Positions 4,799-55,799 of a stretch of DNA of 64,000 nt are shown here, piece by piece; the stretch's first letter is position 1, and every line of letters starts with the position of its first letter. Source of the stretch: Candidatus Latescibacterota bacterium (GTDB taxonomy: Bacteria > Latescibacterota > UBA2968 > UBA8231); the NCBI GenBank assembly GCA_016187725.1, contig JACPJE010000068.1, positions 1 to 64,000 of the forward strand. The letters run 5' to 3'. The translations under genes and the position numbers were made by a program. The notes under the pieces are model-generated. The model saw only the letters and a program-made list of their open reading frames with translations. It searched no databases and was not told the DNA's origin.

Positions 4799-5602
4799 CT
4801 ACCGGAACCCCAGCTCTTTGAGCGGGCGCAGCATCGACTGGCGGCGCGGGCCACCGCCGGCCAGGAAGGCCGGATCGTAGACCCTGTCGGCGGGGCCGAA
4901 AGGGTTTTTGGTCCGCATCCATTCGAGCACGGACTCGTGGTTGCGCCTGAGTTCGTCGAAGTGCACTTCCTCGGTGGGCCGGGTGGAGAAGTTGAGGGTG
5001 CACATCCGCCGGTGGCGGCTGCCGCCGTAGGAGGCGTGCCAGAGACGCTGGTTGAAGACGACCATGTCGCCAGGCTCTGATACCAACGGGTAGGAGGGCA
5101 TCTGGTCGCCCGCCAGGCCAAAGGGATAGACCGGCGGCCTTTGGACGCGGTGGAAGAGTTCAAAAACGGAGGTCCACAAGGGCTCGCGGTGGGAGCCGGG
5201 GATCACGCGCAAACAGCCGGAATCCTCCCGGACCGGATCGAGGTAGAAGGCGACCTTGACCAGTTGGTGGCCGGGCAGGACGACGTGGCGGTCGGGGTGC
5301 CACTCGGTGTTGCCGACGTAGTAGTTGGCATCGGAGGGCCAGTACACGAAACCCGGCCCCAGCAGCTCTTCGAGCACCCCGTAGACCCGGTCGTCCTCCA
5401 GCAGGGCCAGCAGCGCCGGCCGCCGCTCGACATACTGGAGCACCATCTGGCGCTCGACGCCCTCGTGCGGTGCGCCGTGGCGGGCCTCGCGCATCAGCTC
5501 GTCGAACTGGCGGCTGATCTGGGCCATCTCGGCGGGGGTGAAGTGCTGGCGAAAAACCAGAAATCCGAAGGTGTCGAAGAAGTTGTGATGGTCGGGAGAC
5601 AT
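4799..5602 (-). CDS. Phytanoyl-CoA dioxygenase (PhyH) family oxygenase
   Basis: 267 residues, the usual PhyH length. The non-heme Fe(II) facial triad is visible: H102-P-D104 in EWHPDRH and the distal H189 in LWHASYGG, with basic residues at 196-199 for 2-oxoglutarate. The family hydroxylates substrates with O2 and 2-oxoglutarate; the substrate cannot be predicted. It starts 4 bp after the DedA gene, so the two are cotranscribed and form the distal end of the minus-strand BMC gene train, though a repeat element separates them from thiO. Confidence 0.85.
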   Translation of the reverse strand: MSPDHHNFFDTFGFLVFRQHFTPAEMAQISRQFDELMREARHGAPHEGVERQMVLQYVERRPALLALLEDDRVYGVLEELLGPGFVYWPSDANYYVGNTEWHPDRHVVLPGHQLVKVAFYLDPVREDSGCLRVIPGSHREPLWTSVFELFHRVQRPPVYPFGLAGDQMPSYPLVSEPGDMVVFNQRLWHASYGGSRHRRMCTLNFSTRPTEEVHFDELRRNHESVLEWMRTKNPFGPADRVYDPAFLAGGGPRRQSMLRPLKELGFR

Positions 5603-5606
5603 AGGC

Positions 5607-6239
5607 TCACTTTCCTCGCCGCTGGCGAAGGTACCCCACCACCATCGGCAGCAGCGAGATGCCGATGATGGCGAAGATCACCAGGCTGAAGTTTTTCTTG
5701 ACCACGGGCAGGTTGCCGAAGAAGAAGCCGGCGTACACCAGGCCCGGCACCCATAACAGCGCGCCGACCACGTTGAAGGAGAAGAAGCGGCGGTAACCCA
5801 TGTCGCCGATGCCGGCCACAAAGGGGGCGAAGGTGCGGATGATGGGCACAAAGCGGGCGATGATGATCGTCTTGCCGCCGTGTTTCTCGTAGAAGGCGTG
5901 GGTGCGGTGCAGGTGCTCGGGGTTGAAGAACCAGGACTTCTGCCTGGTGAAGACCTTGGGGCCCACGTAGTGGCCTATCCAGTAATTGGCCGCGTCCCCC
6001 AGCACCGCGGCCAGCACCAGCAGGCCAATGATCCACTGGGGGTTGAGCGCCCCGGTGGAGGCGATGGCCCCGGTGGCGAAGAGCAGCGAGTCGCCGGGCA
6101 GGAAAGGCGTCACCACCAGCCCGGTCTCGGCAAAGACCACCAGAAAGAGGATGAGATAGACCCAGGGACCATAGGCGCTGACCAACTCGTACAGGTGGAC
6201 GTCGAGGTGCAGGAACAAATCGATCAGTTGCGCGATCAC
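5607..6239 (-). CDS. DedA-family inner-membrane protein
   Basis: 210 residues with several hydrophobic segments and DedA signatures: an N-terminal F-L-P-G-D-S-L-L-F loop, G-D-x-x-N-Y-W-I-G, and the conserved [15 protein letters not shown]. Family members are membrane proteins linked to undecaprenyl-phosphate or phospholipid flipping and to membrane-potential homeostasis. AGGAG lies just before the ATG at 6239. It precedes the PhyH gene by 4 bp. Confidence 0.9.
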
Positions 6240-6278
6240 ATGTCATCTCCTGTCGAAAAAGACCAGCGGTTCGATAGT

Positions 6279-6512
6279 GCGGCGGGGAGATGACCCTGGA
6301 GGCCTTTCCCGGGGAGTGGCCGGGGTGGGAAGTCCGCGTGGCAGGGCGGCGGGGTAGCGGAGCCAGAGCGAGCGAGGGGACGCAACACCATATAAATGGT
6401 GTTGCGGGGGCCGGGCCGTAGGGACGTCCCGTTCGGGCGACGCCACACCCCATACGTTGGGGTGCAGCGGGACGCGCCTTGGGAAAAGTCGAAGTGGGTC
6501 GCTCCCCGACGA
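6279..6512 (+). repeat. Dispersed intergenic repeat, long copy (A)
   Basis: Matches 16956-17102 in the same orientation. The shared blocks include GCCTTTCCCGGGGAGTGGCC, GGAAGTCCGCGTGGC, GTAGCGGAGC, AGCGAGCGAGG and CGCGCCTTGGGAAA. This copy holds about 90 extra bases (about 6381-6470) with two hairpins: CGCAACACCAT-ATAA-ATGGTGTTGCG (6381-6406) and CACCCC-ATACGTT-GGGGTG (6446-6464). It fills the gap between thiO and the DedA gene. I see no coding sequence in it. Confidence 0.75.
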
Positions 6513-6516
6513 CACT

Positions 6517-7599
6517 TCACCTTTCTGGGGCGAAGCGCTGCAGATCGAAGGGGGGCCGGCCCGTCGCTATCCAGTCGGCCAGCAGCTGGCCGGTGAGGGG
6601 TCCCAGCAGGACGCCGTTCTTGTAGTGGCCGGCAGCGACAAAAACCCTGGGCTGGGCCTGGAGAGGCCCCAGGTGGGGCCGGCCGCCCTTGGGCTTGGGC
6701 CGCAGCCCGGCGCGCTGCCCCAAAAGGCGGGCCGGCAGGTCCAGCACCTGGCTGAACAGGTGGATAAAATGCTCGGCGGCCTGGGGGGTGGTCTGGGTAT
6801 CGAAGCCGGTCTCCTCCACTGTGGCCCCGGCGAGGATCTCCTCCCCGGCAGGCACCAGGTGGATGCCCTGGTGGCGCAGCACATGGCGCAGCTCGGTTCC
6901 CCCGGTGAAGCGGCAGTGCTGGCCGCGCACCGGCCGCACCGGCAGGCTCAGGCCCTGGTGCTGGGCCAGTTCGCCGGTCCAGGCGCCAATGGCCAGCACC
7001 AGGAAATCGGCGCGGTGCTCGCCGGCGCGGGTGCGCACCCGGACACCCTGGCCTTGCTGGGCGAATTCCTCGACCCCTTCGCCCAGGCTGAGGCGGGCCC
7101 CCTGCTCTTGGGCCGCCTGCAAAAGGGCACGGGAAAGGAGTTCGGGATCCACGCGCTGGTCGGTGGGAAAGTAGACCCCGGCCAGGACCCGGGCGGAGAG
7201 GCTGCGCTCCAATTGGCGCAGGTCTTCCCCTTCCACCCACTCGGCCGGACAACCGCGCTCCAGGTTGAAGGCCAAAAGCTGGCGGGCCTCGGCGATTTCG
7301 GTCTCGCTACAGGCCAGGTCCACCCCTCCCAAGGGACGCCAGCCCACGTCGATGCCGGTCTGGTCGCGCAGGCGGGCGGCTAGTTCGGCGTGCAGGGCGT
7401 GGCCCTGGCGGTAGAGTTGGGAATAGGGATCGTCCCCCCCGTTGAAATGGGTGAGCACCCCCAGGGAGGCACAGGTGGTGGGAGAGGGAAAGGGGCCGGG
7501 GTCGAGGATTTGGACACTGAAGCCGCGCCCGCTCAGGTAGTAGGCCGTTGACAGGCCGACCACCCCGGCGCCGGCGACCAGCACCTGCGGGGCGGCCAT
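6517..7599 (-). CDS. thiO: ThiO-like FAD-dependent glycine/D-amino acid oxidase
   Basis: 360 residues. The N-terminus has the FAD dinucleotide-binding motif G-A-G-V-V-G-L-S-T-A-Y-Y-L. The C-terminus has G-H-Y-K-N-G-V-L-L-G-P-L-T, typical of ThiO glycine oxidases, which make iminoglycine for thiazole synthesis and release H2O2. The start is 4 bp after the aldolase stop, so it is translated with the BMC operon. No other thiamine genes are in the window, so another amine substrate linked to the BMC pathway is possible. Confidence 0.75.
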   Translation of the reverse strand: MAAPQVLVAGAGVVGLSTAYYLSGRGFSVQILDPGPFPSPTTCASLGVLTHFNGGDDPYSQLYRQGHALHAELAARLRDQTGIDVGWRPLGGVDLACSETEIAEARQLLAFNLERGCPAEWVEGEDLRQLERSLSARVLAGVYFPTDQRVDPELLSRALLQAAQEQGARLSLGEGVEEFAQQGQGVRVRTRAGEHRADFLVLAIGAWTGELAQHQGLSLPVRPVRGQHCRFTGGTELRHVLRHQGIHLVPAGEEILAGATVEETGFDTQTTPQAAEHFIHLFSQVLDLPARLLGQRAGLRPKPKGGRPHLGPLQAQPRVFVAAGHYKNGVLLGPLTGQLLADWIATGRPPFDLQRFAPER

Positions 7600-7603
7600 G
7601 GCC

Positions 7604-8782
7604 TCAGCGGCCCACGATGGGCGGCAGGTGGGTCACCGGACAGGCGCGGGGGGCCTTGACCGAATAGCCCATGTCGCCCAGCACGCAGCTGATCTGGGCT
7701 TCGAGTTTGAGCAGGTACTGCTGCTCCTCGGCGCTCATCAACTGGCGGGGCGGGCCCACCTCGAAGCCGCGCACCGCCACCCCGGTCTTGAACCCTTCCG
7801 GGAAGTTGACGCCCAGAAGCATGAGGTTGATCAGGTCGAGGATGCGGTATTGCAGGATGCGGGCCTGTTCCACCTGGCCGGCCAGGGCCTTGTTGTAGAT
7901 CTCCACGATCACCTCGGGGATGATCCCGGAGGTGGCGATGGTGCCGCCGCTGGCCCCCATCATCACCGAGGGAAAGAGGATCTCCTCGCAACCCACCAGC
8001 ACCACGTAATCGGGCCGCTGCGCCCGCAGCCGGTGCATGGTGTTGATCAGCCGGGGCAGGTCGCGGCTGGAGTCCTTGGTGCCCATGATGTGCTCGTAAG
8101 GCAATAACCTTTCCATCAGGTCCAGGGGCAATTCCTGGGTGAACTGGGGGATATTGTAGAGCAGGATGTCCAGGGGCGACTGGCGGGCGATCTCGGCGAA
8201 GTACTCGAAGAGGCTGGTGTTCGACATCTTGTAGTAATAGGGCGGCACCAGGGAGATGGCGTCCACCCCGATGGAGGCGTAGAACTCGGCCATCTGCAGC
8301 ACGTCGCGCAGGTTGGCCTCGCTGGCCCCGGCCAGGATGGGCACCCGGCCTTTGTTCACCTGGCAGATGAGCTTGACCACGTCCTGGCGCTCCTGCCAGG
8401 AGAGGCGCACGAACTCCCCGGTGCTGCCGTTGGGATAGAGCCCGTGGATGCCGGCCTGGATCAGCCATTCGATGTAGCGCTCCATCTCCGGGTAGTTGAT
8501 CTGGTCCTTTTCGTTGAGGATGACGATGTTGGGGCAGAGGATGCCCTTGAATTCCCGCTTGCCCGAGGTGGACGCCTTCCGGGGTGGCAGCACGGATGCC
8601 GGGGCCGGGGCGATGGCCGTCTCGGAGGCGGCGCGGCGCTGCACCTCTACCCCGTGGGCGCGCAGGTAGTCGAGGGCCGAGGGGGTGAGTTTGGAGTGGG
8701 GGCAGAGTTCGAGGGCCTTGTCGTTGCCCAGCCGGGCTTCCAGCACCTGGGCGGTGATCACGGGATCGTCTAGGCGGACCAT
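7604..8782 (-). CDS. BMC-associated DHDPS/NAL-family aldolase with EutT-like N-terminal module
   Basis: 392 residues. Residues 80-380 form a dihydrodipicolinate synthase/N-acetylneuraminate lyase-type TIM barrel with G119-S-T-G-E, Tyr209 (L-L-Y-N-I-P) and Schiff-base Lys236 (G-T-K-D-S-S). The family makes or splits 2-oxo acids through a lysine-pyruvate imine. Residues 7-48 form an extra module (V-I-T-x-x-x-L ... L-T-P-S-A-L-D-Y-L-R-A-H-G-V-E-V) like the start of EutT-type BMC proteins, joined by a Pro/Ala/Ser linker (about 51-75). The Cys-rich protein at 10513-10977 has the same module. In this position the module probably brings the enzyme into the shell. The likely reaction is retro-aldol cleavage to pyruvate plus an aldehyde; the substrate is unknown. 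Confidence 0.8.
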   Translation of the reverse strand: MVRLDDPVITAQVLEARLGNDKALELCPHSKLTPSALDYLRAHGVEVQRRAASETAIAPAPASVLPPRKASTSGKREFKGILCPNIVILNEKDQINYPEMERYIEWLIQAGIHGLYPNGSTGEFVRLSWQERQDVVKLICQVNKGRVPILAGASEANLRDVLQMAEFYASIGVDAISLVPPYYYKMSNTSLFEYFAEIARQSPLDILLYNIPQFTQELPLDLMERLLPYEHIMGTKDSSRDLPRLINTMHRLRAQRPDYVVLVGCEEILFPSVMMGASGGTIATSGIIPEVIVEIYNKALAGQVEQARILQYRILDLINLMLLGVNFPEGFKTGVAVRGFEVGPPRQLMSAEEQQYLLKLEAQISCVLGDMGYSVKAPRACPVTHLPPIVGR

Positions 8783-8794
8783 CTGCTATCCTCT

Positions 8795-9937
8795 TCAGTG
8801 AACCAGGCGTTCCGTCAGTTGGGTGTAGGGATGGGGAATCAGGTGGATGGCCACCAGCTCGCCGTATTTGGCCGCTTCCACGGCCCCGGCATCGAGGGCG
8901 GCCTGTACCGCGGCCACGTCCCCGCGGATGGCGCTGGCGGTCAGAAAGTAGCCCACCTTGTAGCTGCCTTCGTATTCGACATTGGCGGCCTTGAGCATCA
9001 GGTCCATGGCCTTGGCCAGGGCGATGCTGCTGCGGGTCTCGATCAGGCCCAGGGCCCGGCCAGCGCTGGGGCGTTCCACGCTTGGGCCAGGGGCGGCGAA
9101 GCAGGCCATCACTTCGGGGGCGGGGCGCGAGACCAGCCGGGCGGCATTGAGTTCGCCCACCTGGCGGGCGGCGGCAGTGCCGGCGTCCACCGCGGCCTGC
9201 ACGTCGTCGATATTGCCTTTGAAGAGCAGGGCCACCCGGCCACCGGTGCCGATATTGATGCGGCTGATCTCCACCTCGCCGGATTTGACCGCGGCGTCGC
9301 CGGCCCCCACCATGGCCACGTACCCGGTGGTCTCTATCACGCCCAGGGCCCCGCTGGACCGGGCCTCGCCCGCCGGGGGCGGGGGCAACATCCGGCCCAG
9401 GCCAGATGCCGGCTGGGGGATGAGCAGGGTGGCGATGACGTCTCCGCACTGGGCAGCGGCCAGGCGGCCCGCCTCCAGAGCGGTCTGCACCGCGGCCACG
9501 TCGCCGCGCGCGATCACGTGCACCAGGGCCCCGCCGATGGCGGCCCAGCCCTCGATGCTGACGGCCGCGGCCTTGGCCATGGCGTCGGCCCCCCCGATCA
9601 GCGGGGTCAGGCCCCGGGTCTCCAACAGCCCCAGGGCCTGGTTTCCCACCGGGCGGTCCTGGGAGCCAGTGCGGTGGGGCATGCCCTCCAGGCCCTCGGG
9701 CCGGGCGATCACCTCGGCGCTGATCAATTCCCCGTACTTGGCGGCTTCTTCCTGGCCGGCGCGCAGGGCGGCCTCCACGGCCGCCACCTCCCCTTCGACC
9801 AGGACCGTGACCCAGGCCGAGCCCACCCCGTGCCGGCCGCAGATCTCGACCTGGGCGGCCTTGACCATCACGTCGGCGGCCCCCACCAGGGCGGCCATGC
9901 CGCGCGTTTCGAGAATGCCGAGGGCTGGGGAACTCAT
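8795..9937 (-). CDS. Shell protein with four tandem BMC domains
   Basis: 380 residues from ATG 9937. Four complete Pfam00936-type BMC domains lie at about 5-80, 101-176, 197-272 and 295-370. Each opens with A-L-G-[LIV]-[IL]-E-T and ends in a short [IV]-x-x-P segment. The pore segments differ: GVGSA, AIGGA, NIGTGG and KVGYFL. Linkers of about 20 residues, one with four prolines (184-188 region), join them. Known shell proteins have one domain (hexamers) or two (pseudo-hexameric trimers); four in one chain is unusual. Three chains would supply twelve domains, two stacked or adjacent rings. It begins 8 bp after the BMC-T gene. Confidence 0.9.
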   Translation of the reverse strand: MSSPALGILETRGMAALVGAADVMVKAAQVEICGRHGVGSAWVTVLVEGEVAAVEAALRAGQEEAAKYGELISAEVIARPEGLEGMPHRTGSQDRPVGNQALGLLETRGLTPLIGGADAMAKAAAVSIEGWAAIGGALVHVIARGDVAAVQTALEAGRLAAAQCGDVIATLLIPQPASGLGRMLPPPPAGEARSSGALGVIETTGYVAMVGAGDAAVKSGEVEISRINIGTGGRVALLFKGNIDDVQAAVDAGTAAARQVGELNAARLVSRPAPEVMACFAAPGPSVERPSAGRALGLIETRSSIALAKAMDLMLKAANVEYEGSYKVGYFLTASAIRGDVAAVQAALDAGAVEAAKYGELVAIHLIPHPYTQLTERLVH

Positions 9938-9945
9938 CTGGGGTC

Positions 9946-10500
9946 CTAGCGCCGGCCAAATGCCTGCAGCACCTGCGGCACCGGCTGGGCGATAAAGGCG
10001 GAACCTAGAAACTTGGACGAAGCGGCGGCCAGTTCGCGGCCCACGGCCAGGGCCTCCTTGACCGCGCCCACCTCCCCTATGATCAGGGAGCAGACCACCC
10101 GGTTGTGGACGGTGAGCACGTTGGCCACCTCCACTTGGGCGGCCTTGACCATGCGGTCGTCGGCCAGCACCTGCAGGCCGTAGCCCTGGGTTTCGAGCAG
10201 GCCCAGGGCGCCGGAAACGGGTGCTATCTCCTTTTTGACAGGGACGGTGACGTAGTTGAAGCAGGCGGGTTCGGGCTGGTTGAGGGCGGCGGCACTCACC
10301 TTCTTGGATACCTGCCGGGCAGCTTCCTCGCCGCTGCGCAGGGCCGCGGCCACGGCGCTGATCGAACCAATAAAAAAAACCGTGGTGAACCCACCGATGG
10401 AATCCCAGCCCAGCAACTCCACCTCGGCGCTCTTGCAGGCCGCATCCGCCGCGACGACGATGCCCGCCACCCCTTCGACCTCGACCATGCCGATGGCCAT
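9946..10500 (-). CDS. BMC-T shell protein (two BMC domains)
   Basis: 184 residues with two BMC domains, about 1-80 and 95-175, opening M-A-I-G-M-V-E-V-E-G and A-L-G-L-L-E-T-Q-G. Such tandem-domain proteins form trimers with a pseudo-hexameric outline and often a larger pore. The two domains are more diverged from canonical BMC-H than the other shell proteins here. It lies between the Cys-rich gene (12 bp upstream) and the four-domain shell gene. Confidence 0.9.
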   Translation of the reverse strand: MAIGMVEVEGVAGIVVAADAACKSAEVELLGWDSIGGFTTVFFIGSISAVAAALRSGEEAARQVSKKVSAAALNQPEPACFNYVTVPVKKEIAPVSGALGLLETQGYGLQVLADDRMVKAAQVEVANVLTVHNRVVCSLIIGEVGAVKEALAVGRELAAASSKFLGSAFIAQPVPQVLQAFGRR

Positions 10501-10512
10501 GGACGCCCCCGT

Positions 10513-10977
10513 TCAGCGCGGTCCCAGGCGGCTCATCACCTGGGCGGCGATCTGGCGCACCAACTCCTCGCTCACCCCGGGCAGGACCGCCGCGCTCTTG
10601 TGGCGGTTGCAGCCCTGGCAGGCCGGGCCGCACCCGCCCTGGGCCTGGTGGATGGCGCACTGGCCGCAGGAGGCCGGCTCGACAAAGCCAGATCCGAACT
10701 CCTCGGTCTGGCAGCCGCAGGCCCGGTCGGGGTGGTCGCAGCGGCCCTCCTGCACCAGACTGGAGGGGGTGAGTTCGGGGATGAGGCCGGGAGAGGGCGC
10801 TGGTGCGGCTGGCGCGGGCCCGCGTATCACCTTGAGGCGGTGCTGGCGGATATAGTCCCAGCCCGTGGGGGTGATCACCGATCCGGGGAGCAGGCGCAAC
10901 TCCTCCTGGCCCTGGTGCTGCTGGCGCAGCAGGGCCTCGGTGATGATCGGGGCGTCGAGATGGCAGGCCCTGGACAT
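10513..10977 (-). CDS. Cys-rich BMC cargo candidate with EutT-like N-terminus
   Basis: 154 residues in three parts. Residues 9-52 resemble the start of EutT and of the aldolase in this operon (I-I-T-E-A-L-L-R ... I-T-P-T-G-W-D-Y-I-R). The middle has eight cysteines: C80, C87, C89, C104, C107, C116, C120 and C123, a spacing that could bind an Fe-S cluster or zinc. Residues 135-151 (VSEELVRQIAAQVMSRL) form an amphipathic helix like the encapsulation peptides on PduL and the aldehyde dehydrogenase here. I do not recognise an enzyme. A redox or cofactor role inside the shell is an inference. Confidence 0.7.
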   Translation of the reverse strand: MSRACHLDAPIITEALLRQQHQGQEELRLLPGSVITPTGWDYIRQHRLKVIRGPAPAAPAPSPGLIPELTPSSLVQEGRCDHPDRACGCQTEEFGSGFVEPASCGQCAIHQAQGGCGPACQGCNRHKSAAVLPGVSEELVRQIAAQVMSRLGPR

Positions 10978-10986
10978 GGCGCTGGC

Positions 10987-11250
10987 TCAGTTCAGCTTTT
11001 CCCTGAGCACCTCTACCGGGCGGGGGATCACGTGCACGCTGCGCAGTTCGCCCACCTTCTGGGCGGCCTGGGCCCCGGCGTCCACTGCGGCCTTGACCGC
11101 GGCCACGTCGCCTTCGACCATCACCGCCACCAGGCCTGCGCCCACCCGCTTCTGGCCGGCAAAGCTCACGTCAGCGGTCTTGAGCATGGCGTCGAGGGCC
11201 TCCACCACGCAGACCAGGCCTTTGGTTTCGACAATACCCAGTGCTTTCAT
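10987..11250 (-). CDS. BMC-H shell protein
   Basis: 87 residues, one canonical BMC domain ([11 protein letters not shown], pore segment R-V-G-A-G, end H-V-I-P-R-P). Such proteins form the hexameric tiles of the shell facets. It lies 9 bp upstream of the Cys-rich gene and 15 bp after the fused double-domain gene. Confidence 0.95.
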
Positions 11251-11265
11251 CAGTTGTCAGTCTCC

Positions 11266-11829
11266 TCAACTCAGGAAGAGGTCGATGGTTTCGTCGCTGG
11301 GACGGGGGATGAGGTGGCGCGACACCAGCTCGCCCACCCGTTCGGCGGATTCGGCCCCGGCGCTGACCGCGGCGCTCACCGAGCCCACGTCGCCGGTGAC
11401 CAGCACGGTGATGTAGCCGCCGCCGATCTCGCGGATCTTCACCACCTCGACGCTGGCCGCCTTGCTCATGGCGTCGCTGGCTTCGATCACCCCGGTGGCG
11501 CCCCGGGTCTCGATCATGCCCAGGGCCCGCACACCCTTGGGGGCCTCGCCCCGGGCAGCGCGCGAGGGCAGGATGGCGCCCAATTCGCCGTGCGGGCGGG
11601 GGATCACGTGCACGCTGTGCACCTTGCCCACCTTGGCCGCGGCCTGGGCCCCGGCGTCCACCGCGGCCTTGACCGCGGCCACGTCCCCCTGGCAGAAGAC
11701 GGTGACCAGGCCGGCGCCCACCTTGTCCCAGCCCAGCAGGGAGACACTGGCCGCCTTGCTCATGGCGTCGCCGGCTTCGATCAGGCCAGCCAGCCCCACC
11801 GTCTCTACCATTCCTAATGCTTCTGCCAT
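11266..11829 (-). CDS. Fused double BMC-H-like shell protein
   Basis: 187 residues with two BMC domains at about 1-80 and 102-180. Both look like ordinary BMC-H (A-L-G-M-V-E-T-V-G and A-L-G-M-I-E-T-R-G, pores K-V-G-A-G and E-I-G-G-G) rather than the diverged halves of classical BMC-T proteins. A linker of about 20 residues with S-R-A-A-R-G joins them. Together with the four-domain protein it suggests repeated fusion of BMC-H genes in this locus. Confidence 0.9.
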
Positions 11830-11867
11830 ATTTGTCCTCCTGAAACCTTAGTGTTGAAGGAGTTGCG

Positions 11868-12530
11868 CTATTTTTCCAGATACACCTTGCGGGCGCGGAC
11901 CAGGTCCACGGCGTTGCCTTCGTCCGTGTCCAGGTGCACCTCCAGTTTTTCCTTGCCGCTGACCCGGCAGATCAGCCCCTCCAGTGAGCCTCCCTGCTCG
12001 CTTTCGACCACCAGCCGCATCCGGTCGCCGGCTTTGACGCCGTAGTACTGGGCTTCGGCGGGGCTCATGTGCACGTGGCGGGCGGCGCGGATCACCCCAC
12101 AGCGCAGTTCCAGGCCGCCGGAAGGCCCCACCAGGTAGCAGCCGGGAGTGTCGCGGTGGTCGCCGCTGAGGCGCACCGGCGCGTCTATGCCCAGGAAGCG
12201 GGCGTCGGTGAAGGCCAGCTCCACCTGGCAGTACTCGCGCAGGGGGCCCAGCACCCGCACGTGGGCGATCATCTGCTGGCGCGGACCGAATACCGTGACC
12301 GCCTGCTCGGCGGCAAAGGCCCCCTCCTGGTACAGGGGTTTGAGCACCGTGAGCTGGGCGCCCTTGCCGAAGAGGGTCTCCAGGGCCTCCTGGTTGAGGT
12401 GCAGGTGCCTGGCCGAGATGTTGACCACCAGGCGCGGGGCAGCCGGGGCCGGGGCCACGCCCAACTGGGCCTGGAGGGCCTGGCGCACCAGCGCTTCGAT
12501 CTGCTGGTGGTCGAGCAATTGGGCGCTCAT
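11868..12530 (-). CDS. pduL: PduL-type phosphate propanoyltransferase
   Basis: 220 residues. The zinc-binding histidines of the PduL fold are present: R-H42-L-H44-L, R-H152-V-H154-M and H199 in V-H-L-D-T-D-E-G-N-A. It swaps CoA for phosphate on acyl-CoA and recycles CoA inside the shell. Residues 6-24 (LDHQQIEALVRQALQAQLG) form an amphipathic helix typical of an encapsulation peptide. The start overlaps the stop of the BMC-P gene by four bases (ATGA), so the two are translationally coupled. Confidence 0.95.
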   Translation of the reverse strand: MSAQLLDHQQIEALVRQALQAQLGVAPAPAAPRLVVNISARHLHLNQEALETLFGKGAQLTVLKPLYQEGAFAAEQAVTVFGPRQQMIAHVRVLGPLREYCQVELAFTDARFLGIDAPVRLSGDHRDTPGCYLVGPSGGLELRCGVIRAARHVHMSPAEAQYYGVKAGDRMRLVVESEQGGSLEGLICRVSGKEKLEVHLDTDEGNAVDLVRARKVYLEK

Positions 12531-12802
12531 CGCGCCTCCCTGTCGAGGTGTACGTGCTCAGCCCTGGCCAGGATCACCGCGTCCACGGCCAGGGGCGGGT
12601 CAAAGGCATTGACGGCCTCGCGGGCCACTTCCACCACCACCAGGTCGCCCTCGCGCATGGCCTGCCAGGTGGCGCTCACCTCCGGGTCGCCAATGGGCTG
12701 CAGGTCTTCGCCGAGATCCTCGATCAGGTGCAGGGCCTTGCCCGTGTACGGGGCAATGGCCTTGGAGAGGACCACGGTGCCGATGACCCGCGACAGTTTC
12801 AT
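12527..12802 (-). CDS. BMC-P vertex protein (EutN/CcmL family), copy 2
   Basis: 91 residues with the EutN/CcmL opening M-K-L-S-R-V-I-G-T-V-V and a C-terminal V-D-A-V-I-L-A segment. Family members form pentamers that close the corners of the shell. It lies 4 bp after another BMC-P gene. Three such genes in one locus suggest distinct vertices or mixed pentamers. Confidence 0.9.
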   Translation of the reverse strand: MKLSRVIGTVVLSKAIAPYTGKALHLIEDLGEDLQPIGDPEVSATWQAMREGDLVVVEVAREAVNAFDPPLAVDAVILARAEHVHLDREAR

Positions 12803-12806
12803 CCGC

Positions 12807-13103
12807 TCATCTCACCGGCAAATCGCGGCCAAAGGCCTGCAGGTTGTCGATGATGCCCACGATCACCGCGTCGGTGGGCACGTCGCCCATCTGCGGGGCG
12901 AAACGCGCCGAGCTGCCCATCACCACCAGCACCAGCTCGCCCTCGCCGGCGCCCACCGCGTCGATGCAGACCAGGTGGCGGCCGGTGGGCTCCAGGCCCT
13001 GCTCGCGCACGGTGATGATCTCCACCAGCAGGAGTTTCTTGCCGACCAGGTTCTGCAGCTTGGCCGTGGCGACCACGTGGCCCTTGACCCGCGACAGTAC
13101 CAT
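12807..13103 (-). CDS. BMC-P vertex protein (EutN/CcmL family), copy 1
   Basis: 98 residues, opening M-V-L-S-R-V-K-G-H-V-V-A-T and containing the pentamer-forming G-A-G-E-G-E-L-V-L-V-V-M-G-S-S-A-R and T-D-A-V-I-V-G-I-I-D. This is the standard EutN/CcmL pattern. It lies downstream of the aldehyde dehydrogenase gene, separated by a strong palindrome. Confidence 0.92.
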   Translation of the reverse strand: MVLSRVKGHVVATAKLQNLVGKKLLLVEIITVREQGLEPTGRHLVCIDAVGAGEGELVLVVMGSSARFAPQMGDVPTDAVIVGIIDNLQAFGRDLPVR

Positions 13104-13121
13104 GCGCCTCTAAAATCCTGT

Positions 13122-13146
13122 AAGGGCGGGTTTGCAACCCGCCCTT
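13122..13146. repeat. Perfect 11-bp-arm palindrome in the BMC operon
   Basis: AAGGGCGGGTT (13122-13132) and AACCCGCCCTT (13136-13146) form an 11-bp stem with a 3-base loop between the aldehyde dehydrogenase and BMC-P genes. Inside an operon it could stabilise or process the mRNA, or attenuate the shell genes. It is of the same G-rich REP-like type as those at 2117-2216 and 30605-30630. Confidence 0.65.
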
Positions 13147-13173
13147 GTCTGTAGTCCGTGTTCTGAGATCATC

Positions 13174-14607
13174 TCAGGTGATGCGGAAATAATCCACCAA
13201 ACTGCAGCGGCGCTGGCGGGTGAAGGTGCGGGCCGAGGTCAACCCCTCTCCGGTGGGGCCGGCGATGGAGAAGGTACAGAACCCCTCCCCGCCGATGCCC
13301 ACCCCGCCGTAGGAAGGCCCGTTCTTGACGAAGATCGTGGTGTCCACGGCCCTGGCCATGTTGTGCATGTTCTCGATGTTGCGCGAGTGGATGATTGCCG
13401 TGTGCCGGTACCCGTGTTCGGACTCGATGGCCAGGCGGATGGCCTGCTCGACGTTGGGCACCCGGACGATGGGCAGGAAGGGCATCATCTGCTCTTCGTG
13501 GACGAAGGCGTGGCTGGCGTCGGTCTCGCCGATGAGCATCAGCACCTGCTCGTCGAGGTGGATGCCCACCCGCTGGGCCAGCACCGAGGCGTTGCGGCCT
13601 ACCAGCTCGCGGTTGACCACCAGTTCGCCCTTGGGACTTTTGACAAAGGCGTGTTTGGCCAACTCCTCGATCTGGGCGGGGGTGAGTTCGTAGCCGCTGT
13701 GGCGCACCAGGCGCGCCTTGAGTTCGTCGGCCACCGACTCGATCACAAAGACCTGCTTCTCGCCGATGCACAGGATGTTGTTGTCGAAAGCAGCCCCGGC
13801 GATGATGTCGCGGGCGGCCCGGTCGATGTCCGCGGTCTCGTCCACCACCACCGGCGGGTTGCCCGGCCCGGCGACGATGGCCTTCTTGGGACTGGCCATG
13901 GCGGCCTTGGCCACCCCAGGGCCCCCGGTCACCAAAAGCACCCGGATGCCCGGATGGGTGAAGAGCTGCTGGGCGCTTTCGATGGTGGGGGTCTCGATGG
14001 CGGTGATCAGATCGGCCGGCCCGCCCACCCGGGTGATGGCTTCGTTGAGCAGGCGCACCGCCCAGGCCGAGACCTTCTTGGCCGCCGGGTGCACGTTGAA
14101 GACCACCGAGTTGCCCGCGGCGATGATGCTGATGGCGTTGTTCACCAGGGTGGGCACTGGGTGGGTGGAGGGAGTCACCGCGCCGATCACCCCGTAGGGG
14201 GCCATCTCCACCACGGTCAGGCCGTGGTCACCGGTCCAGGAGATGGCCTCCAGGTCCTCGACGCCCGGGGTCAGGTCAGCGGCGGCGTAGTGCTTGCGGA
14301 TCTTGTGGTCCACCCGCCCCATGCCGGTCTCCTCCACGGTCATGCGGGAGGATTCCTCGGCCTTGCTGCGGATGGCCTGGCGGATGGCCTCGATGATCTT
14401 GCGGCGCTCCTCCAGGGTGCCCCCCACCAGGGCCCGCTGGGCGGCGGCGGCGGCGGCCACGGCCTCGTCCACGGTCTGGAAGACCCCGCCCGCCCCGCTC
14501 CTGCCCTCGCTGAAGCTGAGGGTGTTGCCGGCCACCACCCGGCCCACCACCTCCTGGACGATGCGGCGGATCTGCTCTTCGCTGACGTTGTGTGCCACCC
14601 CGTTCAC
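13174..14607 (-). CDS. BMC CoA-acylating aldehyde dehydrogenase (EutE/PduP type)
   Basis: 477 residues if GTG 14607 is the start. GTG 14598 is better placed behind GAGGTG and would give 474. The catalytic Cys280 lies in D-N-N-I-L-C-I-G-E-K, with G-P-G-N-P-P upstream, as in EutE/PduP enzymes that turn aldehydes into acyl-CoA with NAD. Residues 8-25 (VSEEQIRRIVQEVVGRVV) form an encapsulation-peptide helix. It supplies acyl-CoA for PduL. No alcohol dehydrogenase for NADH recycling is seen in this locus. Confidence 0.93.
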   Translation of the reverse strand: MNGVAHNVSEEQIRRIVQEVVGRVVAGNTLSFSEGRSGAGGVFQTVDEAVAAAAAAQRALVGGTLEERRKIIEAIRQAIRSKAEESSRMTVEETGMGRVDHKIRKHYAAADLTPGVEDLEAISWTGDHGLTVVEMAPYGVIGAVTPSTHPVPTLVNNAISIIAAGNSVVFNVHPAAKKVSAWAVRLLNEAITRVGGPADLITAIETPTIESAQQLFTHPGIRVLLVTGGPGVAKAAMASPKKAIVAGPGNPPVVVDETADIDRAARDIIAGAAFDNNILCIGEKQVFVIESVADELKARLVRHSGYELTPAQIEELAKHAFVKSPKGELVVNRELVGRNASVLAQRVGIHLDEQVLMLIGETDASHAFVHEEQMMPFLPIVRVPNVEQAIRLAIESEHGYRHTAIIHSRNIENMHNMARAVDTTIFVKNGPSYGGVGIGGEGFCTFSIAGPTGEGLTSARTFTRQRRCSLVDYFRIT

Positions 14608-14707
14608 CTCGTGTTAGGCCTCGCGCCGGATTGGTGTACCAACTTGCCTGCTCTGGCGAGACGCTAAGGCCGGTCTGAATTGCGATTTCTTCACTCGCGG
14701 GCCCAAT

Positions 14708-14737
14708 GGGCGCTATTTCTTTGGGCGCTATTTCTTA
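14708..14737. repeat. 15-bp tandem duplication over a BMC-H stop codon
   Basis: GGGCGCTATTTCTTT (14708-14722) and GGGCGCTATTTCTTA (14723-14737) are direct repeats differing at one base. The second holds the stop codon of the BMC-H gene (14728-14730, minus strand). This is a small slippage duplication with no coding effect visible. Confidence 0.75.
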
Positions 14738-15006
14738 TTGATGGGAAGGATGCTTTCGAGACTGGGGTGCGGCCGGGGGATGACGTGGACCGCCAGCACC
14801 TCCCCCACCCGGCGGGCAGCGACCTGGCCGGCCTCGGTGGCGGTCCGCACCGAGGCCACGTCGCCGCGCACCAGCGCGGTGACCAGGCCCCCGCCGATCT
14901 GCTGCCAGCCCACCACCGCCACGTCGGCGGCCTTGACCATGGCGTCCATGGCCTCGATGAGAGCCACCAGCCCGCGGGTTTCGATCATGCCCAGTGCGTC
15001 GCCCAT
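14728..15006 (-). CDS. BMC-H shell protein, first gene of the BMC operon
   Basis: 92 residues with one canonical BMC domain: [12 protein letters not shown], pore Q-I-G-G-G, end H-V-I-P-R-P, then a short tail. It is the first gene after a sigma70-type promoter at 15029-15057 and lies 120 bp before the aldehyde dehydrogenase gene. It faces the FAH gene across a shared promoter region. Confidence 0.95.
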
Positions 15007-15028
15007 GCTGCCCTGTTTTTGATTTGAG

Positions 15029-15057
15029 AAAATAGGGGGGGGTACAGGCAAAGTCAA
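15029..15057 (-). promoter_or_regulatory. Sigma70-type promoter of the BMC operon
   Basis: On the minus strand TTGACT (15057-15052), a 17-bp spacer and TATTTT (15034-15029) precede the BMC-H ATG at 15006. Its -35 box faces that of the divergent FAH promoter 14 bp away, forming the inverted repeat GTCAAG...CTTGAC, a natural site for shared control. Confidence 0.65.
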
Positions 15058-15071
15058 GACGCCCTCCCGCC

Positions 15072-15101
15072 TTGACATCCCTTGGCGCCGCACCCTATTT
15101 T
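15072..15101 (+). promoter_or_regulatory. Sigma70-type promoter of the FAH gene
   Basis: A perfect TTGACA (15072-15077), an 18-bp spacer and TATTTT (15096-15101) lie upstream of the ATG at 15139. The -10 box has the same sequence as the divergent BMC promoter. Confidence 0.65.
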
Positions 15102-15138
15102 CGCCTGCACTTTGACCCCGACACTGAGGAGAATAGCG

Positions 15139-15942
15139 ATGCGCATCATCCGCTTTATCGACGAGCAGGGCCAGACCCGCCTGGGCGAGGAAAGCGGCCC
15201 GGGCCAGGCCGCGGTGCTCAAGGGGGATTTGTTCGGCAGACTGGAGCGCAGCGGCCAGAGCGCCGCAGTCAAAAAGCTGCTGGCCCCGGTGACCCCTCCC
15301 AATATCCTGTGCATCGGCCTGAACTACCGCGAGCACGCCGCCGAGTCGGGGGCCAAGATCCCCGATTACCCGGTGCTCTTCATGAAGCCCAACACCGCCC
15401 TCAACAACCCCGGGGACCCCATCCGCCTGCCGGCCTGCCAGGTCGATGCGGAGGTGGATTACGAGTGCGAATTGGCCGTGGTCATCGGCAGGACCTGCCG
15501 CGACGTGCCCGAAGCCAAGGCCCTGGAGTACGTGCTGGGCTACACCGCGGCCAATGACGTGTCGGCGCGCACCTGGCAGATCAAGCGGGGCGGCGGCCAG
15601 TTCGTGCGCGGCAAGGGCTTCGACACCTTCTGCCCCCTGGGGCCGGCCCTGGTCACCGCCGACGAGATCCCCGATCCCCAGGCCCTGCGGCTCAAGACCC
15701 TCCTCAACGGCAAGGTGATGCAGGACCACACCACCGCGGACATGATCTTCCCGGTGGCGCACCTGGTCAGCTTCCTCAGCCAGGACACCACCCTGCAGCC
15801 GGGCACGGTGATCCTCACCGGCACCCCCCAGGGCGTGGGCTTCGCCCGCAAGCCCCCCGTCTGGCTGCAGCCCGGCGACGAGGTGGTCATCGAGGTGGAG
15901 AAGATAGGAAGGTTGGTGAACCTGGTGGGGGCTAGTCGATAA
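15139..15942 (+). CDS. Fumarylacetoacetate hydrolase (FAH) family protein
   Basis: 267 residues from ATG 15139 behind TGAGGAG. FAH signatures are clear: [11 protein letters not shown], the metal ligands in [17 protein letters not shown] and [10 protein letters not shown]. The family hydrolyses or decarboxylates 2-oxo or diketo acids, including diketo-3-deoxy sugar acids to pyruvate and a hydroxyacid. Divergent from the BMC operon and overlapping the end of a BMC-P gene by 11 bp, it very likely works in the same pathway. The exact substrate is unknown. Confidence 0.88.
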
Positions 15943-16186
15943 TCCCCACGATCACGCTGCGCACCGCCGGGGCCTTGACCCCGGTCACTTGGCCCCCGGC
16001 GATGCCCGACTCGCTGACCACCACCTGGCTGCCGATGCCGGCGCCCACCCCGTCGATGGCCAGCTGCATGGGCACCGTGGGATCATTCACACCCTCCAGG
16101 CCGGAGACCACCAGGATCTTCCGGCCTTCGAGGATGGGGTGCTTGACCGTGGTCACCACATGCCCGATGACCTTGCACATTCTCAT
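15932..16186 (-). CDS. BMC-P vertex protein (EutN/CcmL family), copy 3
   Basis: 84 residues: [29 protein letters not shown] and S-V-I-V-G-I-I-D, the EutN/CcmL pattern. A second Met at 16180 is an equally possible start. It is separated from the main operon by the FAH gene, whose end it overlaps tail to tail. Confidence 0.88.
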
Positions 16187-16218
16187 AAATTGACCCCTAT
16201 TGCGCGAGGAATGACCCG

Positions 16219-16953
16219 ATGACTGCCGCTGAACTGGATGCCCGGCTCGACCAACTGGAAAAGGATGGTTTTCTGCTCATCCCCCAGGCCCTTTCCCCCG
16301 CCGAGACCAAAGAGGTTCGCCAGCGGGTGAACCGCGCCCGGGAACAGGGCTGGCAGGAAGGGCTCAACGAGGTGGGCAATATGTGGTTCGACCGCCTGCT
16401 GGTGCAGGACCCCGAGACCTTCCGCCCCCTGGTCGCCCATCCCGGCGTCCGCCCTTACCTGGACGCCCTGCTGGGGCCCCAACTCCAGCTGCGCAGCTTC
16501 CGCGCCCACATCAATCCCGGCCCCTATCTGCAAGAGTGGCACATGGATTTTTACGGGTATTGGCAGCAGCCCAAACGGCGCTTCAGCGTGCGCGGAGTGG
16601 CGGTCAACACCACCTTCTATCTACAAGATAACGGCCCCAAAGACGGGCACCTGAAATTCGTCAAGGGCGGCCACTTGTCCGAGCCGCCGGGCCTGGACCG
16701 GTCCAAGTTCCACGGGTACCACAGCAACGAGTTCAGGGACTGGTGCGAAGCCCAGGAGCACGTGGTGGTGCACCCCATGGCCGGGGACTGCGTGCTCTTC
16801 TTCAGCCACATCCCCCACCAGGGGGCCAAGCTGCGCGAGGACATGGAGCGCAGCAACGTGGTCTGCCACTTTCAGGGCAACCCCTTCTACGAGGGCATCT
16901 GGTTCGTGTCGCGCCCCATCGGGTACGAGGGGACCTTCCCGCTGGCCAGCTGA
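16219..16953 (+). CDS. Phytanoyl-CoA dioxygenase (PhyH) family oxygenase
   Basis: 244 residues behind GAGGAA. The iron-binding H-x-D is in E-W-H-M-D-F-Y-G, and the distal His is in F-S-H-I-P-H-Q-G-A-K with following basic residues. It would be a 2-oxoglutarate/O2-dependent hydroxylase of unknown substrate. It is not a close copy of the PhyH gene at 4799-5602, and the two bracket the BMC region. Confidence 0.85.
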   Translation: MTAAELDARLDQLEKDGFLLIPQALSPAETKEVRQRVNRAREQGWQEGLNEVGNMWFDRLLVQDPETFRPLVAHPGVRPYLDALLGPQLQLRSFRAHINPGPYLQEWHMDFYGYWQQPKRRFSVRGVAVNTTFYLQDNGPKDGHLKFVKGGHLSEPPGLDRSKFHGYHSNEFRDWCEAQEHVVVHPMAGDCVLFFSHIPHQGAKLREDMERSNVVCHFQGNPFYEGIWFVSRPIGYEGTFPLAS

Positions 16954-30713: not shown

Positions 30714-30900
30714 ATGAAGAGGACGGCCATCGGCCTGATCGAACTGTCCAGCATCGCCGCCGGCTTTGCCGTGGCCGACGTGTTGCTCAAGGCCGCCATG
30801 GTGGAACTGCTGATCAACCGCACCATCTGCTCGGGCAAATACCTGATCCTCATCGGCGGGGAAGTGGCGGCGGTGGAAGCCAGCCTGGCCGCCGGGGTGG
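30714..30900 (+). pseudogene. Truncated BMC-T/BMC shell gene fragment
   Basis: From ATG 30714 the frame gives one BMC domain start: A-I-G-L-I-E-L-S-S-I-A, A-D-V-L-L-K-A-A, Y-L-I-L-I-G-G-E-V-A-A-V-E-A-S. This is the first half of a BMC-T of the type near PduT. After V-G-V it runs into unrelated sequence and stops at 30980. The second BMC domain is missing. It is not part of the main BMC locus. Confidence 0.7.
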
Positions 30901-30907
30901 GGGTCGG

Positions 30908-31025
30908 CGGCAGTGCTCCTACTGCACCGAACTGTGCCCCCGCTACCTGTTGGGCTACCAGGTGGAGCCCCACAAGGTGATGCGCGACCTGGGCTTCACC
31001 CTCTCGGGGCTGGTCGCCAGTTTGC
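30908..31025 (+). pseudogene. PduS-like Fe-S protein fragment
   Basis: In a second frame 30914-31025 encodes C-S-Y-C-T-E-L-C-P-R-Y-L-L-G-Y and V-E-P-H-K-V-M-R, the ferredoxin-like segment of PduS/RnfC-type proteins, which pair with BMC-T shell proteins. Only about 40 residues survive. The frame continues without a stop into the TPR gene, so the fragment supplies the 5' end of that open frame. Confidence 0.7.
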
Positions 31026-50975: not shown

Positions 50976-52094
50976 CTAGTTCTGCCTTACCCGCTCTTCG
51001 TAGGGCAGCGGCTCGGGAATCCCGAAGAGGTCGCGCTTGGCCTTGAGGTAATAGAGGTAGTTCTCATAGGTCACGTCGGGCGGCACCCGGTGGTCCACGT
51101 GGGGGATGCAGCCGCCCTGGCGCACCAGGGGCTCGATCCGCCGCAGTTCCCGGTCTATGGCTTCCTTGCCGGCGATCAGCGCCTTCTTGTCCACCCCGCC
51201 CAGCAGCAGCACCCGCTCGCCGTATTGGTCGCGCAGGGCGAAGGGATCGGTGCCGGCGGCGATCTCCAGGGGGAACATGCAGTTCACCCCGCCCTCCAGC
51301 CACAGGCCCACCAGCTGGCTGATGTCCCCGTCGCAGTCGGTGATCACCACGTCCACCCCGTGCTGGTGGAGCAGGTCGGTGATCCGCTGGTAGCGGGGCA
51401 CCATGTACTGCTCGAACATCGCCGGCGAGATGATGGGCCCGTGGTTGAAGCACATGTCCTCCCAGCCGGCGGCGAAATCGAAGTGCACCTGTTCCAGGGC
51501 CGGCCGGATGGTCTCGGCGATCAGCACGGTGATCTGCTCCATCACCTCCTCGAAGAGCGCCGGGTCGTCGTAAGCCATCAGCGAAACCCCCTCGAAGCCC
51601 ACCCAGTTGCGGATCCAGCCGAAGAGACTGCCGATGCCGATGCCCAGGGGGTAGTCGCGCTCCTGCCAGTGGGCTTTCAGCTCCTCCCAGTTGGGCGGAT
51701 AGCGGCCCACCATCCCCGGGTCCAGCCGGCGGCGGAATTCCTTCCAGGTCTGCCGGTCGCGCAGGGGGAACTCCAGGTACTTGGGGATGGAGGAGTGCCC
51801 GTCCCTGGCGACGATGCACTTGACCCCGTTGCCGTCCAGGACGATCTGGTGCTGCCTGGTCTCCTCCAGCACCTGGTGCTGGAAGCCGGGCAGCAGCCCG
51901 GAGTTGACCGGGGCTCCCGAGCGGGGGGCGAAGCCGAAGAAATGGTCGGCCTTGGCGTTGTCATTGACCCAGGCCGGCAGCCCCTGGGCGTGCCACAGGT
52001 CGAGGGTGTCGCTCCAGTACCCGAACTCCTCGTCTGGCACGTGGTCTGCGGGCCGAAAATGCATGGTGTCATTCCACCGCTGGCGATGGTCCAT
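50976..52094 (-). CDS. URO-D-family corrinoid methyltransferase candidate, copy 4 (last in operon)
   Basis: 372 residues from ATG 52094 behind GGAGAGGAG. URO-D/methyltransferase-type TIM barrel. The usual metal-ligand position reads V-I-T-D-C-D-G and the late loop G-G-C-I-P-H-V-D-H-R-V-P-P-D-V, unlike the HxC form of MtaA. Relatives move methyl groups to or from corrinoid proteins. The neighbours (corrinoid protein, activase, folate enzymes) support that role. Substrate unknown. Confidence 0.85.
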   Translation of the reverse strand: MDHRQRWNDTMHFRPADHVPDEEFGYWSDTLDLWHAQGLPAWVNDNAKADHFFGFAPRSGAPVNSGLLPGFQHQVLEETRQHQIVLDGNGVKCIVARDGHSSIPKYLEFPLRDRQTWKEFRRRLDPGMVGRYPPNWEELKAHWQERDYPLGIGIGSLFGWIRNWVGFEGVSLMAYDDPALFEEVMEQITVLIAETIRPALEQVHFDFAAGWEDMCFNHGPIISPAMFEQYMVPRYQRITDLLHQHGVDVVITDCDGDISQLVGLWLEGGVNCMFPLEIAAGTDPFALRDQYGERVLLLGGVDKKALIAGKEAIDRELRRIEPLVRQGGCIPHVDHRVPPDVTYENYLYYLKAKRDLFGIPEPLPYEERVRQN

Positions 52095-52114
52095 GGCAGG
52101 GCTCCTCTCCTTCC

Positions 52115-53251
52115 TCACTTTATGCGCGCTGGATCGATGGGATAATCCCCCCACGCCTCCACCATCTCCCCGATACGCTCCAGCCGGCTCAGCAGCGCCC
52201 CGGGCATGACGTTGTCGGCCACCCCCAGGATGAAGGCGTCGCCCGGGGCGACGGTGCGGAAGATGCCGCGCATGTACGCCTCGAACTGGTCTTCGCTGTA
52301 GGCTTCCTCCAGGATCACCGAGGGCACCGCCCCCCAGATGATCATGTCGGCGCCCCAGAAGCGGCGCGCCTCCTCCAGCGTGCAGGTCACCTGCGGGGCG
52401 GTGGTGAAGGTCTCGACCATGTCGAAACCGGCCTCCTGCAAATGCCTCAGGATCAGCCGCGAGTCGTTGTCGGCGTGCATGCACAGGAGCTTGTCGTGCC
52501 CGTGCAGCAATTCGGAGAAATCCTGGTAATACGGGGTGATGTAGCGGCTGAAAAGCGGCGGCGGGGTGAGGTTGGAATCCAAGTGGACCCCGTGCAGGAT
52601 CAGGCGGGCCGGCGAGGCGGCCACCACCGGCCAGACCCGCTCGCGTTCCAGCTCCTCCATGGTGCGCAACAGCCGCTCCGTTTCGCCGGGACAGTCGGCC
52701 AGCAGATAATAGGCGTTGTTGTACCCGGCCAGTTTTTGCAAGAAATGGTGGAGGGGGCAGTCGCCGGCCGCCACCAGGGGATAGCCGTCCTCGCCGATCT
52801 GGGCCTCGTACTGGAGGTACTTCTCGTAGGTGGGGATGTAGTGGGTGTGCTCGAACAGGTATTCGACCACGGCGAAGTCGGCGGGACCCTTGATCAGGTG
52901 CTCCACCTCCAGGCTCTGGATGCCCACCCGTTCCAGTTCGGCTGAAGAGCGGTACCGGCTCTCCACCTGGCCCATTGGGGTCCGGTAGGTGTACAGGGTG
53001 GACTCGCCCTCCTGGCGGCTGTGCACCTCCACGTCCCCCCGCTGCTCGCCGGCGAAGATCTGCCCTTCGCGCGCTGGCGTTCCCATGCCCAACTGGTGTT
53101 CGATCTGGCGCAGGGACATGCCGGCAAAGCGCTTGGGCAGGGTGTGCTGGCACTGGTGGGCGGTGTGCCAGAGTTGCAGCCGGGGTATCCAGGGGATACG
53201 GTCCGGGCTCTTGCGGTCCATGATGGCCAGCAGTCGCTCCCGGTCGGTCAT
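52115..53251 (-). CDS. URO-D-family corrinoid methyltransferase candidate, copy 3
   Basis: 378 residues from ATG 53251 behind GGGAGG. Opens T-D-R-E-R-L-L-A-I-M-D-R-K-S-P-D-R-I-P-W, as in URO-D family proteins. The metal-ligand loop reads L-C-M-H-A-D-N-D, an HxD variant. It lies 13 bp after the folate fusion gene and 20 bp before copy 4. It differs enough in sequence from the other three copies to act on another substrate or partner. Confidence 0.82.
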   Translation of the reverse strand: MTDRERLLAIMDRKSPDRIPWIPRLQLWHTAHQCQHTLPKRFAGMSLRQIEHQLGMGTPAREGQIFAGEQRGDVEVHSRQEGESTLYTYRTPMGQVESRYRSSAELERVGIQSLEVEHLIKGPADFAVVEYLFEHTHYIPTYEKYLQYEAQIGEDGYPLVAAGDCPLHHFLQKLAGYNNAYYLLADCPGETERLLRTMEELERERVWPVVAASPARLILHGVHLDSNLTPPPLFSRYITPYYQDFSELLHGHDKLLCMHADNDSRLILRHLQEAGFDMVETFTTAPQVTCTLEEARRFWGADMIIWGAVPSVILEEAYSEDQFEAYMRGIFRTVAPGDAFILGVADNVMPGALLSRLERIGEMVEAWGDYPIDPARIK

Positions 53252-53264
53252 CGGTGCCCTCCCT

Positions 53265-55784: not shown

Positions 55785-55799
55785 GGAGGGCCTCTCTTT

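Follow-up and report, generated by a model that had tools for sequence, protein, structure and literature searches.

The window analysed here (the whole stretch of 64,000 nucleotides from a Candidatus Latescibacterota bacterium, contig JACPJE010000068.1 of assembly GCA_016187725.1; contig C30 of a metagenome-assembled genome of 5.56 Mb) carries a locus that we read as the main locus of a catabolic bacterial microcompartment (BMC), or metabolosome. The gene content confirms the prediction of a metabolosome-type BMC, with PF00936 and PF03319 shell genes, a CoA-acylating aldehyde dehydrogenase (AldDH), PduL and cargo bearing putative tags. New here are an additional class I aldolase of the dihydrodipicolinate synthase/N-acetylneuraminate lyase (DHDPS/NAL) family and a shell protein with four domains, both confirmed as observations, with an interpretation that is partly supported. 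We suggest, with a probability of roughly 0.6, that the shell encloses this aldolase together with AldDH and PduL, that the aldehyde produced is most likely lactaldehyde, and that a class II aldolase provides another entry into the same compartment.

A class I aldolase associated with microcompartment shells

The aldolase has the hallmarks of a class I pyruvate aldolase of PF00701, namely Lys236, Tyr209 and the GSTGE loop. The preliminary description of this DNA placed the two catalytic residues correctly: across 17 relatives Lys236 never varies and Tyr209 hardly ever does, and an alignment of 45 homologues shows no change at either position. The position of E. coli DapA Arg138 is occupied by Phe in the window aldolase and in aligned homologues, and the genome encodes two paralogues that have Arg there. 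The aldolase stays under every NCBIfam cut-off for DapA, NanA, KdgD and the archaeal 2-keto-3-deoxygluconate (KDG) aldolase; the DapA model TIGR00674, its second-best match, gives 154 bits against a cut-off of 206, and the NanA models give 157 and 124 bits against 281 and 382. A tree made by a quick method, with long branches that limit its weight, gathers the shell-linked aldolases in a single group (SH-aLRT 94) that is separate from DapA, NanA and YagE.

A housekeeping DHDPS that came to lie in the operon by accident would agree with the PF00701 name and with the rank of the DapA model. We consider it ruled out for practical purposes by the Arg138 to Phe change, the curated cut-offs, the tree and a separate Arg-bearing copy in the genome that groups with E. 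coli DapA; the linkage to shell genes in four phyla also speaks against it. The preliminary description had opposed such an enzyme to one tied to the shell, and the data favour the latter.

The predicted structure (pLDDT 88) consists of a confident alpha/beta N-terminal domain of 50 residues (90-96), a disordered linker and a TIM barrel. YagE was the best match in the structure comparison and NAL was also close. The N-terminus of the Cys-rich protein encoded in the locus is related to the aldolase N-terminal domain (E 1e-8 to 1e-11), and the N-terminus of EutT weakly so (E 4e-4 to 1e-3).

Homologues with 40-53% identity were detected in Verrucomicrobiota, Planctomycetota and Acidobacteriota by a scan of one genome per species. 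Outside Latescibacterota nearly all homologues have no N-terminal domain, and their last segment is an amphipathic helix of the encapsulation-peptide type; the strict helix pattern fits the C-terminus of 55 of 68, most others being similar, and of none of the 14 Latescibacterota aldolases. BMC genes lie nearby in 20 of the 66 homologue loci, usually as a BMC-T directly downstream (BMC domains directly downstream in 18, directly upstream in one, beside a PduL/BMC-H/BMC-P cluster in one). BMC genes were found in 29/30 searched genomes with a tagged homologue, nearly all of them genomes without an adjacent one. In a Planctomycetota sample, 29 of 79 genomes have BMC genes, including all four aldolase-positive genomes; kinship among the genomes inflates the contrast between 29/30 and 29/79, and its direction is clear. 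Genome context ties this family of aldolases to shells in four phyla, which extends the proposed link beyond Latescibacterota. The tagged homologues, widespread in Planctomycetota and Verrucomicrobiota, were absent from the preliminary description.

Proposed pathway and its alternatives

In the proposed mechanism the aldolase would enter the shell, probably via its N-terminal domain resembling EutT and the Cys-rich protein, and cleave a 2-keto-3-deoxy sugar acid, with 2-keto-3-deoxy-L-fuconate or -L-rhamnonate as the most likely substrate, yielding pyruvate plus an aldehyde. With flux presumably in this direction, the tagged AldDH inside the shell would turn the aldehyde into acyl-CoA, and the tagged PduL would then set CoA free by making acyl phosphate. 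From a sugar phosphate, the same compartment would probably also be supplied by a tagged class II aldolase whose gene lies elsewhere.

The function of a 2-keto-3-deoxy-acid aldolase releasing pyruvate and an aldehyde, suggested already in the preliminary description, is kept as the best reading, which we infer from the neighbours of the homologues. At locus L068 these are a lactonase, a short-chain dehydrogenase/reductase (SDR) and a GH29 alpha-L-fucosidase; the single NCBIfam match of the lactonase is L-fucono-1,5-lactonase, with 258 bits. At L073 the neighbours are an SDR, a UxaA-type dehydratase, an IclR regulator, a BMC-T and another lactonase from the family of the L068 enzyme. RhaT is encoded at L063, and an SMP-30 lactonase with MR/MLE (enolase superfamily) genes at L070. 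At L102 two MR/MLE genes, one of them a galactonate dehydratase above cut-off, are followed by the aldolase and a BMC-T.

L-lactaldehyde was placed first because of these neighbours, the likeness to Campylobacter L-fucose catabolism, whose five steps, with Cj0481/DapA as one of the enzymes, yield pyruvate and lactaldehyde (PMC9100392, PMC6946681), the use of lactaldehyde as the aldehyde of Planctomycetota-Verrucomicrobiota (PVM) type compartments (PMC8857213), and the tagged class II aldolase of Latescibacterota. It is the most likely aldehyde, with glyceraldehyde or glycolaldehyde as alternatives.

Class II aldolase (PF00596), the PVM signature enzyme, is not encoded in the window locus, and neither is acetate/propionate kinase. 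The same genome has a class II aldolase on another contig (G000:C178), with a C-terminal helix resembling an encapsulation peptide. Each Latescibacterota genome tested has one such gene, and the copies of G000, G002 and G018 lie far from the BMC locus and carry a helix of this kind. The earlier statement that the usual signature enzymes are missing, with a DHDPS-family aldolase in their place, is correct for the locus and, as regards class II aldolase, does not hold for the genome. Given the tagged class II aldolase elsewhere in the genome, the aldehyde-handling BMC probably has two entries, of which the DHDPS-type enzyme is the second. In f4, a second family of the same class, a satellite holds the aldolase, the four-domain protein and a BMC-T, and PduL, BMC-H, three BMC-P, AldDH, class II aldolase and acetate kinase are found at the main locus (L137).

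The same compartment might handle a different aldehyde, if the aldolase cleaves KDG/2-keto-3-deoxygalactonate-type or pentonic acids to glyceraldehyde or glycolaldehyde. The closest fold, YagE, is a KDG aldolase encoded next to a xylonate dehydratase, the sequence relative 4uxd (a KDG/2-keto-3-deoxy-6-phosphogluconate aldolase) has the motif YNIPQFT in common with the window enzyme, and a galactonate dehydratase gene stands beside the tagged homologue at L102. The fucosidase, RhaT and fuconolactonase-family neighbours at other loci point away from this possibility, as does the genome's own tagged class II aldolase, an enzyme known from lactaldehyde-type PVM compartments, and we hold it to be a serious but clearly less probable option. 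A hydroxyproline/glycine route, with the DAO-family oxidase and a 4-hydroxy-2-oxoglutarate-type aldolase delivering glyoxylate as the compartment aldehyde, appears improbable. In its favour, glycine oxidase ThiO is the closest relative of the oxidase, whose gene neighbours the aldolase gene in all 14 loci of the window genome's family (f1), and the aldolase relatives include human HOGA (108 bits). On the other side, neither the f4 aldolase satellite nor the aldolase loci read in other phyla have the oxidase, the AldDH and PduL families act on C2-C3 aliphatic aldehydes, and no recurrent amino-acid genes were found beside the homologues.

Several points weigh against cleavage of a deoxy-fuconate or deoxy-rhamnonate inside the shell. 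The Latescibacterota aldolase has its N-terminal domain instead of a classical encapsulation peptide, and many Planctomycetota homologues are not adjacent to BMC genes. No sugar dehydrogenase, lactonase or dehydratase gene was found in or beside the Latescibacterota locus. The MR/MLE gene shared by f1 genomes sits with two dipeptidase-like genes, leaving the local substrate unproved; with so many MR/MLE genes in these genomes, part of the adjacency may be chance. The dehydratases near the homologues differ, and a galactonate dehydratase would give glyceraldehyde, so substrates may vary. The fuconolactonase-like genes remain under the curated cut-off of 400 bits, and it is hard to place the conserved FAD oxidase in the scheme.

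L036 and L039 first suggested an MR/MLE dehydratase as the local Latescibacterota partner, a reading that lost ground given the dipeptidase-like neighbours of the f1 orthologues and the large number of MR/MLE genes. In all f1 genomes examined (L145:7677-10993, L146, L147, L148) the MR/MLE gene is followed by two M19-dipeptidase-like genes, an arrangement that suggests a dipeptide epimerase; in f4 the orthologue is a near neighbour of the BMC aldolase gene. Fuconolactonase-like and UxaA-type genes are present in the window genome, in surroundings that show no BMC link.

A shell protein with four BMC domains

The gene directly following the aldolase gene in Table 1 is not a pair of shell genes; it encodes a single protein with four PF00936 domains per chain, versus the two expected of a BMC-T, which the preliminary description did not recognise. 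It is intact in 15 genomes with 48-91% identity and a conserved pore loop in each domain, and an assembly artefact was rejected on the ground of these intact copies. The predicted model is confident (pLDDT 89, pTM 0.88). Ring geometry was judged through Foldseek: two neighbouring domains match 6ner, an engineered tandem BMC-H fusion, with TM 0.89, so that neighbouring domains would be placed as in a hexamer.

The two-domain BMC-T gene directly upstream is paired with the four-domain gene in every f1 and f4 locus fetched, including the f4 satellite. Gene pairing and domain counts suggest a tentative proposal, the most economical arithmetically, that the two proteins form a heterodimeric pseudohexamer tile (4 + 2 = 6 domains) with six non-identical positions and an asymmetric pore; we regard it as possible, though doubtful. 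Alternatively, a trimer of the four-domain chain would give two hexagons. The 4 + 2 tile, if true, would be a naturally asymmetric hexagon, unlike the known symmetric hexamers and trimers, and useful in pore design. Tandem PF00936 domains are known from BMC-T trimers and from 6ner, but here the protein is natural and has four domains, and 6ner is engineered and has two. No four-domain BMC protein was found in the literature searched, a scope that takes in the main texts of the BMC catalogues; a natural one would be a new shell building block.

Gene content and conservation of the locus

The conserved unit covers about 6517-16186 of the window, on the minus strand except for the divergent FAH gene (Table 1). 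The genes predicted in the preliminary description for 4799-16953 were all located, both the metabolosome core of shell proteins, AldDH and PduL and the FAH-family hydrolase, ThiO-like oxidase and Cys-rich protein; its ends were too wide, taking in PhyH1, DedA and PhyH2. These three (PhyH with two Pfam matches, VTT/DedA with one) were rejected as locus parts since they lie outside the conserved unit in relatives. PF00936 accounts for 10 domains over five open reading frames and PF03319 occurs in three genes.

Table 1. Genes of the conserved microcompartment unit, with positions in the window
Feature	Position	Strand	Evidence and remarks
ThiO/DAO-like FAD oxidase	6517..7599	-	PF01266 (DAO) 220 bits; present in all 14 f1 loci
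DHDPS/NAL-family class I aldolase, 392 aa, folded 50-aa N-terminal domain and linker	7604..8782	-	PF00701 (DHDPS) 190 bits
Four-domain BMC shell protein, 380 aa	8795..9937	-	four PF00936 stretches, single open reading frame
BMC-T shell protein, two domains	9946..10500	-	PF00936 x2
Cys-rich protein	10513..10977	-	no Pfam match; alignment and HMM links to aldolase N-terminal domain
BMC-H shell protein	10987..11250	-	PF00936 90 bits
BMC-T shell protein, two domains	11266..11829	-	PF00936 x2, 175 bits
PduL phosphotransacylase	11868..12530	-	PF06130 (PTAC/PduL) 220 bits; N-terminus DHQQIEALVRQALQAQL
BMC-P vertex protein	12527..12802	-	PF03319 34 bits
BMC-P vertex protein	12807..13103	-	PF03319 93 bits
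CoA-acylating AldDH	13174..14607	-	NCBIfam PRK15398 (EutE/PduP) 666 bits, cut-off 403; Aldedh 134 bits; N-terminus SEEQIRRIVQEVVGRVV
BMC-H shell protein, start MGDALGM	14728..15006	-	PF00936 96 bits
FAH-family hydrolase, accessory	15142..15942	+	PF01557 (FAA_hydrolase) 257 bits
Third BMC-P vertex protein	15932..16186	-	PF03319 68 bits

A search for syntenic loci, proposed earlier, detected the gene order from AldDH or BMC-P to the oxidase in 14 f1 loci, within contig reach, so the arrangement is not due to chance. Among 100 relatives the extended aldolase is 67-94% identical within f1 and about 73% in f4. The FAH gene is present in 9/14 f1 loci, and most of the remaining loci hold extra BMC-T and BMC-H genes in its place; its nearest NCBIfam model is 2,4-didehydro-3-deoxy-L-rhamnonate hydrolase (221 bits, under the cut-off of 500). 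Many f1 loci have a second, very divergent DHDPS-family gene (PF00701 25 bits) after the oxidase (L021:13809-14747 and its f1 equivalents); it is not in the window, where DedA and PhyH1 occupy the place. The public record of L041, a near relative, is titled Gemmatimonas phototrophica but belongs with the Latescibacterota-type loci, and the title is probably a naming error.

The best solved relatives of the AldDH are BMC AldDHs, among them 4c3s, presumably the same protein as the published AldDH of a fucose/rhamnose BMC. PMC4762007 assigns the published enzyme to a BMC of this type. Judged by sequence, helices resembling encapsulation peptides are N-terminal on AldDH and PduL and C-terminal on the Cys-rich protein, so that these three are the putative tagged cargo of the locus.

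Further features lie elsewhere. In the window at 30714-30991 (+), a PduT-like BMC domain (61/75 positions) is continued out of frame by a Cys motif (CSYCTELCPRYLLGYQVEPHKVMR) resembling PduS-type ferredoxin proteins, which looks like a decayed or rearranged PduS/PduT remnant. Satellite BMC-H proteins (L142:8092-8550 on contig C83 of the window genome, L137:13639-14133 and L138:10244-10726) have a C-terminal tail resembling the SAP/Rho-N motif (LKGREISRATREELL-like), with no Pfam match; it recalls EutK, whose C-terminus is nucleic-acid-binding. Several UroD-like methyltransferases, a pterin-binding protein, a reductive-activase-like protein and a small B12-binding protein were recognised by eye at 50979-61445 (-) of the window, and the region reads like a corrinoid-dependent methyltransferase system.

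Comparison with known systems

The comparison with published catalogues agrees with the preliminary description, which knew of no characterised BMC of this type. DHDPS or pfam00701 is not mentioned in the main texts of the 2014 and 2021 BMC catalogues, whose supplements, outside this scope, may list the aldolase without comment; no report of a DHDPS-family BMC aldolase was found in the literature searched (microcompartment plus dihydrodipicolinate). According to the 2021 catalogue, many metabolosomes have AldDH without an obvious aldehyde-making enzyme (PMC8217296). An earlier study of Latescibacteria suggested a fucose/rhamnose BMC via a 1,2-propanediol route (PMC4454575).

The window locus is like the PVM and PVM-like compartments for fucose/rhamnose in its acylating AldDH, PduL, three BMC-P and BMC-H, in the probable lactaldehyde chemistry and in the tagged class II aldolase of the genome, and the f4 main locus has the full PVM-like set. 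Unlike them, it has the DHDPS-family aldolase, the four-domain BMC protein, BMC-T, the Cys-rich protein and the FAD oxidase, and lacks class II aldolase and acetate kinase. The HO microcompartment (Haliangium ochraceum) is similar in AldDH, three BMC-P, several BMC-T and a signature reaction that is unknown. The 2021 catalogue links an aldolase to the HO satellite and names pfam01791 as the sugar enzyme, which is not DHDPS (PMC8217296).

The Campylobacter jejuni L-fucose cluster (Cj0480c-Cj0490) likewise has a DHDPS-family enzyme assigned to the release of pyruvate and lactaldehyde, and it is like some loci of tagged homologues (L073) in SDR, amidohydrolase and UxaA-type dehydratase. It differs in that no shell genes are described and the aldehyde dehydrogenase is another one, while the window locus has no upstream steps. 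With YagE (about 28% identity) and the archaeal KDG aldolases the window aldolase has in common the fold, the Schiff-base Lys and Tyr and a hydrophobic residue at the Arg138 position, and with YagE also a GSxGE-type loop. These enzymes are not shell-associated and have neither the EutT-like N-terminal domain nor the C-terminal tag.

Taken together, the tagged DHDPS/NAL-family aldolase of four phyla offers a specific candidate for some of the missing aldehyde production and points to an overlooked route feeding toxic aldehydes into bacterial organelles. It would tie non-phosphorylating sugar-acid pathways to organelles so far known from sugar-phosphate aldolases.

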